DNA of 64,000 nucleotides from Rubrivivax sp. (GTDB lineage Bacteria > Pseudomonadota > Gammaproteobacteria > Burkholderiales > Burkholderiaceae_C). Both the position numbers and the translations under genes were made by a program. The stretch is from the NCBI GenBank assembly GCA_022842595.1, contig JALHPF010000004.1, positions 1 to 64,000 on the forward strand, read 5' to 3'. Shown here piece after piece: positions 46,655 to 51,176 of this stretch. How positions within the stretch are numbered: the first letter of the stretch is position 1; each line of letters opens with the position of its first letter. The notes under the pieces were generated by a model. That model was given only the letters and a program-made list of their open reading frames with translations. It had not been told where the DNA came from and did not search any database.

Positions 46655-47133
46655 TGAGAATGCTAGAAAACCTGGCCCGACTGTGTGCGGTGCTGGCCGG
46701 CCTGCTGTTGACTGCCATCACGCTGATGACCTGCGTCAGCCTGCTGGGCCGCAACACCACCGGCTGGACGATCAACGGCGACTTCGAGATCTCGGGCTTC
46801 GCCGCCGGCGCGGCCATCGCCTTGTTCCTGCCGCTGTGCCAGGTGCGGCGCGGCAACATCATCGTCGACTTCTTCACCACCCGCGCCCGTGCCCGCACCC
46901 AGCAGCGACTGGACCGCCTGGGCGCCGCGCTGCTGGCCGGGGTGATGGCCTTGCTGACCTGGCGCACGGCGCTGGGCGGCGCCAGCGCCTACCAGTCGCA
47001 GGCGGGTTCGATGATGCTCGGCGTGCCTGAATGGTGGGTGTACGCCGCGATGGTGCCGGCACTGGCACTGACCGCGCTGATCGCGGCGTTGCAGGCCGTG
47101 CAGGGTTTCGAACGGGTGGGGTCGCCGGCATGA
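46654..47133 (+). CDS. TRAP transporter small permease (DctQ family)
   Basis: LLTAITLMTCVSLLGRNTTGWTINGDFEISGFAAGAAIALFLPLCQVRRGNIIVDFF. Confidence 0.9.
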   Translation: MRMLENLARLCAVLAGLLLTAITLMTCVSLLGRNTTGWTINGDFEISGFAAGAAIALFLPLCQVRRGNIIVDFFTTRARARTQQRLDRLGAALLAGVMALLTWRTALGGASAYQSQAGSMMLGVPEWWVYAAMVPALALTALIAALQAVQGFERVGSPA

Positions 47134-48446
47134 CGCCGATCACGCTGACGGTGCTGATCTTCGGCGTGATGCTGCTGCTGATGGCGCTGCGGGTGCCGAT
47201 CGCCGTTTCCATGTTCAGCGCTGGTGCCACAGGCTATGTGCTGCAGGCCGGCTGGCTGCCGCTGGCGAGCTTTCTCAACACCCAGGCCTTTGCGCGCTTC
47301 GCCAGCTACGACCTGAGCGTGATCCCGCTGTTCATCCTGATGGGCAACTTCGCGACCCAGGGCGGGCTGTCGCGCTCGCTGTTCGAGTTCGCCGCGGCGG
47401 TGATGGCGCGCTTCAAGGGCGGGCTGGCGATGGCGTCGGTGCTGGCCTGTGCGGCCTTCGGCGCGATCTGCGGCTCGTCGGTGGCCACCGCCGCCACCAT
47501 TACCCAGGTGGCCTTGCCCGAGATGCGCAAGCACGGCTATTCCGGCCGCCTGGCCACCGGCACGCTGGCGGCGGGCGGCACGCTGGGCATCCTGATCCCG
47601 CCTTCGGTGCCACTGGTCATCTACGCCATCCTCACCGAACAGAACATCGCCAAGCTGTTTGCCGCGGCCATGGTGCCGGGGCTGATCGCGGTGCTGGGCT
47701 ACATGCTGGCGATTGCGGTCTATGTGCGCCTGGTGCCCGGCCATGCGCCCGAACACGACGAGGTGCCGGCGGTGACGCTGCGTGCCTTGTCAGGCATCGT
47801 GCCCATCGCCGCGGTGTTCCTGGTCGTCTTCGGCGGCATCTACGGCGGTCTGTTCACGCCCACCGAAGGTGCGGCGGTGGGCGCGGCAGCCACCTTCGCC
47901 GCCGCCCTGGCCAAGCGTGAATTGACCTGGGCGAAGTTCAAGGAATGCTTCTACGCCACGGCGGTGTCGTCGGCGATGATCTTCATGATCTTCCTTGGCG
48001 CCGACCTGATGAACGCGGCCCTGGCGCTGACCCAGGTGCCGGCGCAGCTGGCCACGCTGGTGCAGGGCCTGGGCTGGCCGCCGCTGGCCGTGGTGGGCGG
48101 CATCCTGCTGCTCTACGTGGTGCTGGGGGCGGTGATGGACGAGCTGAGCATGCTGCTCCTGACCATCCCGATCTTCTTCCCGGCCATCATCGGCCTGGAC
48201 TTCGGACTGCCGCGCGAGAGCGTGGCGCTGTGGTTCGGCGTGATGGTGCTGATGACCGTGGGCTTCGGCCTGCTGGCGCCGCCCGTGGGGCTGAACGTCT
48301 ATGTCGTCAACAGCCTGGCTGGTGGCGTGCCCATTGCCGAAAGCTACCGCGGCGTGATGCCCTTCCTGGCCAGCGACGTGCTGCGCACGCTGCTTCTGCT
48401 GTTCTTCCCGATGCTGTCGCTCTGGGTGGTGCAGTTCGTTGGCTAG
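47130..48446 (+). CDS. TRAP transporter large permease (DctM family)
   Basis: LMALRVPIAVSMFSAGATGYVL, LFILMGNFATQGGLSRSLFEFA, AAFGAICGSSVATAATI, GGTLGILIPPSVPLVIYAILTEQNIAKLF. Confidence 0.95.
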   Translation: MTPITLTVLIFGVMLLLMALRVPIAVSMFSAGATGYVLQAGWLPLASFLNTQAFARFASYDLSVIPLFILMGNFATQGGLSRSLFEFAAAVMARFKGGLAMASVLACAAFGAICGSSVATAATITQVALPEMRKHGYSGRLATGTLAAGGTLGILIPPSVPLVIYAILTEQNIAKLFAAAMVPGLIAVLGYMLAIAVYVRLVPGHAPEHDEVPAVTLRALSGIVPIAAVFLVVFGGIYGGLFTPTEGAAVGAAATFAAALAKRELTWAKFKECFYATAVSSAMIFMIFLGADLMNAALALTQVPAQLATLVQGLGWPPLAVVGGILLLYVVLGAVMDELSMLLLTIPIFFPAIIGLDFGLPRESVALWFGVMVLMTVGFGLLAPPVGLNVYVVNSLAGGVPIAESYRGVMPFLASDVLRTLLLLFFPMLSLWVVQFVG

Positions 48447-48673
48447 CAGCATGGCCGGGCATCGGCCGTGCATCGGTGGCCTTGTTTCCTGAGCTCCTTC
48501 CACTCGACGGGCACAGACTGTTCCTGCGCGGGCTGGGTGCCGCCGGGCGGTGCGGAGTGAGGCGTGAAGCCCACGAAGCCATGGAACGCCAGAACCGGGC
48601 GATGCCGGCGCACCTGCGCGGTGGAAGCACGCTAACGGCTCGTTGCGGTCGTTCGCTTGCCACCGTTTCCCTT

Positions 48674-48803
48674 GGATCAGGCGGCTGGGGTGTGTTGCTC
48701 CGCTCATGTCCCCGGCCGGCTGCCGACCTAGTGCCTGCGGCACCAGGTCGGCAGCCGGCTCCTCCTTTACTTCGCTGCGCAACACACCCCAGCCACCTGA
48801 TCC
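48674..48803 (+). other. Large hairpin element A: variable outer and inner stems around conserved internal-loop strands
   Basis: Outer stem GGATCAGG.GGCTGGGGTGTGTTGC (48674-48698) / GCAACACACCCCAGCC.CCTGATCC (48779-48803), one mismatch; loop strand TCCGCTCATGTCCCC (48699-48713); inner stem GCCGGCTGCCGACCT-a-GTGCC-TGC-GGCAC-c-AGGTCGGCAGCCGGC (48715-48759); loop strand TCCTCCTTTACTTCGCTGC (48760-48778). Confidence 0.85.
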
Positions 48804-48841
48804 GGCCGCGGGTTTTTGCATTCCACCGTTGCGCGCCAACA

Positions 48842-48982
48842 CCTTGGCGGGCTGGGTGAGTCGGGTGGCCCCCGCAGTGAAGTAAAGGAGGAGCCATGGG
48901 TCCGCCTGAAGCCGCAGGCTTCGGGCGGGCCCATGGCGGGGGACATGAACGGAGGGGGCCACCCGACTCGCCCAGCCCAAGG
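48842..48982 (-). other. Large hairpin element B: same architecture and loop motifs as A, opposite orientation, different stems
   Basis: On minus strand: outer stem GGCTGGGCGAGTCGGGTGGCCCCC / GGGGGCCACCCGACTCACCCAGCC (48954-48977 with 48850-48873); loop strand TCCGTTCATGTCCCCC (48938-48953); inner stem GCCATGGGCCCGCC.GAAGCC-TGC-GGCTTC.GGCGGACCCATGGC (48893-48937); loop strand TCCTCCTTTACTTCACTGC (48874-48892). Confidence 0.85.
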
Positions 48983-49059
48983 GGCCAACGTAGCGTGCCG
49001 TTGGCACGCAAACCGAAGTCCGCAACAGGCCGAGAGCAGTCCCGCCTGAACCCGTGCCG

Positions 49060-50031
49060 CTAAAGGGCCAGGAAAGCCTGCACTGCAGGAAGCGCAGCCG
49101 CAGGGTCTTCTTCGTGCGGTACATGCCCCAGCCGGGGCAAGACGATCAACTGCGCGCGCGTGGCAGCCGGCAGCGCACGCAGGTAGTCCTGCGCATTGGC
49201 CACCGGAATCATGGCGTCGAGCTCGCCCCACACCAGCAAGGTGGGCGCCTGGACGCGTGCCAGCAGTGGCGTGGGTTCCTCCAGGCGCAGCTGCCGAAGG
49301 CGTTCGATGACGGCGCCGCGCGCGCCCGGGGCCAGCAGCAGCTGGTGGTAGCGGCTGACGGTGTCCTCGCCCAGCCGGGCCGGGTCGCCATAAGCTGGCG
49401 CCAGGCCGGCGCGCAGCGCCACGCGGGGCAGCACATGGGGTAGCAGTCCGGCCATCCAGCCCACGTCGGGCGGCTTGCCGTAGTCGAAGCCGGGGCTGGC
49501 AAAGCCATCGGGCGCCACGAGCACCAGGCGGTGCACACGCTGCGGATGCAGGGCCGCCAGCCGCCAGGCCAGGCGGCCACCCATCGAGTGGCCCACCAGG
49601 CTGGCCTGAGGCAGCCCCAGCGTGTCCATCAGCGCCAGCAGCTGGGCCAGCGCGTGGTCGTCGTCGTAGCGGCCGGCCGGGTCGGGCGCAGTGAGGCCAG
49701 AGCCGGGCAGGTCGACGCGCACGACCCGGTGCGTCGCCGCCAGTCCCTGCGCCCAGGGCTCCCAGGTGTGCAGGCTGCTGCCGAAGCCATGCAGCATCAG
49801 CACCGGCGGGCCGGTGGCGGCGCCGGCCGCCGTACCGCTTTCGCGCACATGCCAGCGCAAGCCGCCCGCTTCGACGAAGCGGCTGGGCGGCGCGGCGTAG
49901 CGGGCTTCGAGTTCGGCGCGCGGCAGGTCGGGCGTCCAGGCCCAGCCGGCGCCCAGCAGCAGGGCCAGTAACAGCAGGGTCGCCAAGATCGTGGTCTTTC
50001 GTCGCGCAGCAGGTGGAAGCATTCCGCGCAT
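49060..50031 (-). CDS. Alpha/beta hydrolase
   Basis: PPVLMLHGFGSSLHTWEPWAQGLAATHRVVRVDLPGSGLT, ASLVGHSMGGRLAWRLAALHP, VWGELDAMIPVANA, LGHVPHEEDP; start uncertain. Confidence 0.93.
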   Translation of the reverse strand: MRGMLPPAARRKTTILATLLLLALLLGAGWAWTPDLPRAELEARYAAPPSRFVEAGGLRWHVRESGTAAGAATGPPVLMLHGFGSSLHTWEPWAQGLAATHRVVRVDLPGSGLTAPDPAGRYDDDHALAQLLALMDTLGLPQASLVGHSMGGRLAWRLAALHPQRVHRLVLVAPDGFASPGFDYGKPPDVGWMAGLLPHVLPRVALRAGLAPAYGDPARLGEDTVSRYHQLLLAPGARGAVIERLRQLRLEEPTPLLARVQAPTLLVWGELDAMIPVANAQDYLRALPAATRAQLIVLPRLGHVPHEEDPAAALPAVQAFLAL

Positions 50032-50135
50032 TCTGGCCGCTGCGGCCATGCCGCCCCAGGGAAAGCCTGGGTCTGGCGGCGGCGGCTGATGCGGGTTCGC
50101 CGGCCTACAATTTTTCCGGCAACCGGAGCCCATCA

Positions 50136-51176
50136 ATGCAACGTCGTTCCTTCGTCCAGAGTGCTGCTGCAGCCGCCGTGCTGGGCGTGCCCCACCTCAG
50201 CGGCCTGGCCCAGCAGACCGTCACGCTGAAGTTCCATACCTTCATGGCGCCGATGTCCAACGTATGGCTCACCATGCACAAGCCGTGGATGGAGAAGGTG
50301 GAAAAGGACAGCGGCGGGCGCATCAAGTTCGAGGCCTACCCCGCCATGCAGCTGGGCGGCACGCCGGTGCAGCTGTACGACCAGGCCCGCGACGGTGTCG
50401 TCGACGTGGTCTGGACCCTGCCGGGCAACACGGCTGGCCGCTTCCCGCGCATCGAGGTCTTCGAGCTGCCGTTCATGATGAACAACGCCGAAGCCACGTC
50501 CAAGGCCTACTGGGAGTACTTCCAGACGCAGTGCCCTGACGAGTTCAAGGAAACCCAGGTCATCGCCGTCCAGGTGCACGGCCCGGGCGTGATCCATACC
50601 GTCAACAAGGAAATCAAGAGCGTGGCCGACCTGCGCGGCCTGAAGATGCGGGGCCCCACGCGCCAGGTGACGAAGCTGCTGGGCAGCGTGGGTGCCATCC
50701 CCGTGGGCATGCCGCTGCCGCAGATTCCCGACGCGCTGAGCAAGGGCACGGTGGACGGCTGTGTCATCCCCTGGGAAGTGGTGCCTTCTGTCAAGGTGCA
50801 CGAGCTCACCAAGTTCCACAGCGAGTTTCCGGCGTCCGGCCCGGCGCTTTACACCACCACCTTCGTGATGGCGATGAACAAGGCCCGCTATGACGGCCTG
50901 GCGCCCGACCTGAAGAAGGTGATCGATGCCAACTCGGGCATGGCCGCCAGCGCCTTCCTGGGCCGCACCCAGCAGAGCAACGACCCCAACGGCCGCAAGA
51001 GCGCCACCGACCGCAACAACACCATCCACACCTTCACCGAAGCCGAGACGCAGGAATTCATCAAGCGTTCGGCCGCCATCGACGACGAATGGGTCGCCGA
51101 CATGGACAAGCGTGGCTTCAAGGGCGCGCAGCTGCTGTCGTCGGCCAAGGCTCTGATCGTGAAGCACAAGGGCTGA
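50136..51176 (+). CDS. TRAP transporter substrate-binding protein (DctP family)
   Basis: Signal peptide MQRRSFVQSAAAAAVLGVPHLSGLAQQ; VTLKFHTFMAPMSNVWLTMHKPWMEKVEKDSGGRIKFEAYPAMQLGGTPVQLYDQARDGVVDVVWTLPGNTAGRFPRIEVFELPF. Confidence 0.95.
   Translation: MQRRSFVQSAAAAAVLGVPHLSGLAQQTVTLKFHTFMAPMSNVWLTMHKPWMEKVEKDSGGRIKFEAYPAMQLGGTPVQLYDQARDGVVDVVWTLPGNTAGRFPRIEVFELPFMMNNAEATSKAYWEYFQTQCPDEFKETQVIAVQVHGPGVIHTVNKEIKSVADLRGLKMRGPTRQVTKLLGSVGAIPVGMPLPQIPDALSKGTVDGCVIPWEVVPSVKVHELTKFHSEFPASGPALYTTTFVMAMNKARYDGLAPDLKKVIDANSGMAASAFLGRTQQSNDPNGRKSATDRNNTIHTFTEAETQEFIKRSAAIDDEWVADMDKRGFKGAQLLSSAKALIVKHKG

Follow-up and report, generated by a model that had tools for sequence, protein, structure and literature searches.

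A family of large paired hairpins, whose stems stay paired as their sequences change, is represented in the 64,000-nucleotide stretch of Rubrivivax DNA analysed here (the window) by two hairpins, A and B, that sit between convergent genes for a DctM transporter and an alpha/beta hydrolase. The family has a defined structure and strand polarity, a paired layout and a dispersed distribution; it is present or absent at orthologous loci and both hairpins are long retained where it is present. The account that we favour, on which our confidence is evenly balanced, is that of a non-autonomous insertion element whose hairpins would be read as single-stranded DNA by a candidate trans-acting factor, so that protein recognition, DNA rather than RNA as the folding molecule and mobilisation in trans would all be parts of one model. 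In that model a dispersed, non-coding, non-autonomous element of about 330-600 bp would have the two large inverted hairpins as its core.

The window element spans approximately 48636-49032 (397 bp) with inverted repeats at both ends, a feature that it shares with MITEs, and its parts are collected in the table. Complete copies elsewhere in the Rubrivivax genome are flanked by inverted CGAACGWCCGCAACSKGCCG repeats 336-594 bp apart, and of 158 hairpins outside this genome 45 are followed by repeats like these, where a reversed control gave 8. The 30-nt outer arms of the window hairpins are 90% complementary and the folding energy of the region is −232 kcal/mol (z = −15.2 against shuffles). The preliminary description had placed A at 48674-48803 on the plus strand, and the coordinates hold but the folding strand, as judged from the G.T bias considered below, is the minus strand; B, given there as 48842-48982 on the minus strand, is indeed a hairpin, but its start lies 7 nt outside the stem and it folds on the plus strand.

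Features of the element and its flanks in the window, with position, strand and supporting evidence
Feature	Position	Strand	Evidence
Upstream flanking gene, TRAP transporter DctM subunit	47031-48446	+	PF06808, E 9.6e-83
Left terminal inverted repeat CGAACGACCGCAACGAGCCG	48636-48655	−	inverted copies flank nearly all complete copies in the same genome
Hairpin A, outer stem GGATCAGGTGGCTGGGGTGTGTTGC / GCAACACACCCCAGCCGCCTGATCC	48674-48803	−	R1 match 48670-48805, E 6.5e-19
Hairpin A, 3' loop strand GGGGACATGAGCGGA	48699-48713	−	loop-strand comparison
Hairpin A, inner 21-bp hairpin with 3-nt loop, variable module	48715-48759	−	inverted repeat
Hairpin A, 5' loop strand GAAGTAAAGGAGGAG	48759-48773	−	loop-strand comparison
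Spacer between hairpins A and B	48804-48848		family gap typically 33-56 nt
Hairpin B, outer stem GGGCTGGGTGAGTCGGGTGGCCCC / GGGGCCACCCGACTCGCCCAGCCC	48849-48978	+	R1 match 48847-48982, E 1.2e-18
Hairpin B, 5' loop strand GAAGTAAAGGAGGAG	48879-48893	+	loop-strand comparison
Hairpin B, inner hairpin, variable module	48894-48937	+	fold
Hairpin B, 3' loop strand GGGGACATGAACGGA	48939-48953	+	loop-strand comparison
Right terminal inverted repeat CCGAAGTCCGCAACAGGCCG	49013-49032	+	inverted-repeat comparison
Downstream flanking gene, convergent, alpha/beta hydrolase	49060-50136	−	PF00561, E 3.9e-33

A covariance model (R1), trained on 77 copies from other genomes only and with no sequence from the window, matched the 64 kb at hairpins A and B alone (97.3 and 96.0 bits). 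Among these 77 non-redundant and diverse copies 95.0% of 2618 cells are paired, compared with 63.4% when shuffled and 37-40% when slid, and the covariation score is 0.825 against 0.205. Two-sided compensatory change is seen in 32 of the 34 pairs, bearing out the compensatory stem changes first noticed between A and B. The stem is built of 23 + 9 pairs and the two strands of its internal loop measure 14 and 11 nt; each strand is, as had been said, nearly identical between A and B. Loop columns are also near-invariant across the 77-copy set, which was itself selected by the loop motif. The loop strands had been thought unpaired: their conservation stands, but they are not fully unpaired, since columns 31-35/81-85 read G-C, C-G, tandem G.A/A.G and A-T and the 'internal loop' is thus partly helical. 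Copies found by the model in other genomes have the first three 'loop' positions paired, and among relatives G.A can be exchanged for G-C, A.G for A-T or G-C, and A-T for G-C or C-G, leaving GTAAAGGAGGAG / CGGGGGACA as the constant loop core. In the favoured model this core, lying over a tandem G.A platform, would be the part recognised, and the stems would need only to pair.

The inner hairpins and the loops are exchangeable modules. One copy (L045:623, G000:C64) is without any inner hairpin (GAAGTAAAGGCGGGGGACATGAGCGG), which makes the inner hairpin a separable module, and L248:1275-1660 (G000:C45) joins a B-type outer stem to the loop of a third hairpin type, so modules recombine. This third type, found in the same genome (L156:3210-3527, L009, L250, L252), combines an outer stem of 31 bp (TGCAAAGGCGGGCTGGGGCTGGCT...) with loop strands of another, G-rich sequence (GCATGGGAGGCGCCGAGGAG), and in most complete copies it is this type, not A, that is paired with B. 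Elsewhere (L008, L031, L043, L044) a longer insert, GGAGCGAGCCCGGACACAAACAGTCC...GGACTGTTTGTGCCTGGCGAGCGCCCAGGGCG, takes the place of the inner hairpin.

The opposed tandem arrangement noted in the window is general in the family: 65 close pairs occur among 100 loci, 64 of the 65 are divergent with most gaps 33-56 nt, and the folding strands of paired hairpins point outwards from the spacer, the sequence of which is not conserved in relatives. Where both partners could be assigned a stem type, by a rule drawn up after inspection of the data, the 23 pairs were 21 AB, 2 BB and 0 AA. The pair of hairpins would, in the insertion-element model, form the opposite ends of a single unit, much as in a REPIN doublet.

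Identity between copies within the Rubrivivax genome reaches 97% over 544 bp, and the suggestion of polymorphic presence at orthologous loci is upheld by empty sites at the window locus and elsewhere. At the window locus three relatives are empty, with the gene ends 23-38 bp apart, and related species lack the element at two more loci, although deletion could account for some empty sites, as partial deletions are seen. No target-site duplication is apparent at complete copies or empty sites. Among open reading frames within 3 kb of copies, no transposase cluster stood out in the families listed by neighbourhood clustering, and no repeat pair around a long open reading frame, as might mark an autonomous relative, was noticed at the terminal-repeat positions or on the small contigs that were looked at, in an assembly that holds no contigs below about 4 kb.

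One intra-operon site in another genus could be tracked by its flanks and is common to 25 species. Both hairpins are intact or recognisable in 25 of 25 loci, a figure that describes occupied sites only, since the query was itself an occupied site and loci were ordered by their likeness to it. Divergence per base there is 35-38% in stems and 7-12% in loops, the coding flanks being 84-96% identical in the sampled species, and yet 96.9% of cells are paired, with two-sided change in 30 of 34 pairs. In six other species the two genes nearly abut and show no sign of an insert, in still others remnants or one hairpin are present, and a second tracked site behaves in the same way. Such very fast stem turnover at fixed sites could mean that the covariation is mainly mutational, intrastrand template switching correcting long palindromes with no selection on pairing, and the chimeric hairpins L296 and L301, with arms of two different types, are what loop recombination followed by correction should give. 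A mainly mutational origin is nevertheless improbable, as it explains neither the near-invariant loops nor the retention of both hairpins at 25/25 occupied sites, nor a G.T bias tied to orientation; correction should also remove G.T pairs. The mixed arms of L296 and L301 in themselves suggest recombination in the conserved loop, and the 25/25 retention suggests a function at the site and not parasitic spread alone. It is possible, and is put forward tentatively, that the family is a class of paired single-stranded DNA hairpin sites with a purine loop read by a candidate protein, kept for a benefit to the host and with stems renewed by loop recombination and re-pairing.

Which strand folds is indicated by the wobble pairs. 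Across the 34 pairs of the 77 copies, the GAAGTAAAGGAGGAG strand has 173 G.T wobbles against 28 A.C mismatches, and this excess identifies the GAAGTAAAGGAGGAG strand as the folding molecule, on the minus strand for A and the plus strand for B; each window hairpin has one G.T wobble on its folding strand, equivalent to A.C on the opposite strand. At the intra-operon site in 25 species the operon-antisense hairpin has 40 G.T against 0 A.C and its partner 61 against 3 (gene directions being taken from L256). The same sign of bias in both hairpins argues against a replication or transcription bias, which would give opposite signs, and an antisense hairpin with a G.T excess argues against selection on the operon mRNA, for which the reverse is predicted. 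From base composition, then, the evidence leans towards single-stranded DNA, or a dedicated antisense RNA, as fitting better than operon mRNA. In the favoured model a candidate protein would read each hairpin as single-stranded DNA on the GAAGTAAAGGAGGAG strand.

A transcribed RNA element, with the hairpin bound or processed so as to affect mRNA stability or termination and with spread by an unrelated route, must be weighed here. The fold is very stable and tolerates G.U, sites lie 3' of genes and within operons (on Burkholderia plasmids, for one, where the genes on either side encode an aldehyde dehydrogenase and a hydrolase), one operon site is kept in 25 species, and any read-through transcript would reach the second hairpin in its sense orientation. 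The 40 to 0 excess in the operon-antisense hairpin tells against this RNA reading, as do the lack of a conserved open reading frame and of an Rfam match. It is further weakened in that TATAAT-like sites occur in 0 of 58 spacers against 3.5 expected, so that no bidirectional sigma-70 promoter was seen in the spacer; antisense transcripts from promoters of their own are possible. Overall we regard an RNA element as rather unlikely. A translated start (AAAGGAGG followed by ATG) was likewise rejected, there being no conserved reading frame in the element.

The idea of a repeated family is confirmed by covariance search and exact matches alike, with copies in other Burkholderiales and at least 42 in the genome of origin. 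These 42 are exact two-strand matches and a minimum, alongside about 50 copies of the loop motif; copy number is underestimated because many contigs begin or end inside copies, the repeats breaking the assembly. A wider collection scan gave more than 110 stretches among the matches listed, across Burkholderiales (Hydrogenophaga, Rubrivivax, Variovorax, Rhizobacter and others) together with Sulfurisoma and Pseudoxanthomonas. Within the family of the window organism exact matches occur in 37 of 301 genomes and 25 of 141 genera, a reversed pattern giving none, and R1 gave hits in 14 genomes out of 300 from the order and in 4 out of 387 from the class. Relatives are patchy in Burkholderiales and extend to one further gammaproteobacterial family. 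Divergent promoter regions are avoided, with 5 of 89 sites falling there. A phage or plasmid origin was rejected, since copies were found on 0 viral contigs and in 0 phage records of the viral and phage collections, and only 5 plasmid or chromid records carry them. On two conjugative plasmids, of Burkholderia anthina (L210) and Burkholderia sp. SFA1 (L212), the element lies inside a meta-cleavage operon, inserted between aldehyde dehydrogenase and hydrolase genes.

The element behaves as a REPIN doublet without being a REP. With REP, REPIN and BIME repeats it shares intergenic and dispersed sites, mostly off promoters, and inverted hairpin doublets at fairly fixed spacing, and with GGAG immediately 5' of the inner hairpin and one copy adjoining a RAYT-like gene, giant REP or REPIN elements moved by a RAYT (Y1 HUH transposase) might be envisaged. 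REPs are typically recognised by a 5' GTAG/GTGG tag, by size and by their RAYT (PMC6006769, PMC3733652), and have basal stems of 7-20 nt and bulges of 1-3 nt (PMC6006769). Here, in contrast to short REPs, each hairpin is of about 130 nt with a conserved internal loop of 11-14 nt strands, stems are not conserved even within one genome, and no GTAG/GTGG tag is present at the outer stem in three family alignments, GGAG being found 5' of the inner hairpin only. The RAYT link at which the preliminary description hinted is not borne out: 15 of the 20 element-free genomes have the Y1/RAYT transposase PF01797, as against 12 of the 24 that bear the element, and it is absent from the genome richest in copies. 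The adjoining gene (L156:3763-4449, G000:C27), closely followed by a glutamate-synthase-like gene, encodes a protein (MARLPRLVIPGLAHVVVQRG...) that scores far below the family cut-off and in which the HUH motif is replaced (LLDDQVLLLAQ); from its sequence it looks like an inactive transposase relative. A RAYT origin was rejected on this distribution and the missing HUH motif, and giant REPs seem highly improbable.

No match at E ≤ 1 was obtained between 44000 and 54000 with the 4227 covariance models of Rfam 15, and literature searches by loop sequence and description gave none. MITE-like palindromic repeats of the ERIC, RU and Correia/NEMIS type are non-coding, of 100-500 bp, dispersed, with inverted ends, and occur within operons and 3' of genes. 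Such repeats conserve sequence, in contrast to the present family where cross-genus conservation is mainly of loop and pairing. The attC sites of integrons are long imperfect palindromes with strand-specific folding and a variable inner part, but the resemblance is a general one, no cassette array being noticed and no recombination core recognised at copies. Burkholderiales-1, listed in Weinberg 2010 (PMC2864571), is a candidate structured motif, ambiguous as RNA and without Rfam accession; it comes from the same order and was compared by description, and the family is apparently undescribed on condition that it is distinct from this motif. The preliminary description, which also recognised no family, had named a lack of further copies, unpaired stems or a match in Rfam or among REPs as speaking against it; copies are numerous, their stems pair, and neither source gave a match.

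Should the single-stranded DNA reading be correct, a host role might be sought in operon control, in recombination or at the replication fork, for instance, and a large, strongly covarying element would be added to the few bacterial structures that apparently act as folded single-stranded DNA. The clear loop motif could serve as bait for finding the partner of the hairpin, a site occupied in 25 species and empty in relatives makes insertion and in-place function directly testable, and whole-stem exchange at fixed sites would be an unusual mode of evolution. At the window locus itself, the DNA from the DctM stop to the left repeat (48450-48635) has no counterpart in the three empty-site relatives and is possibly the remnant of an older insertion.
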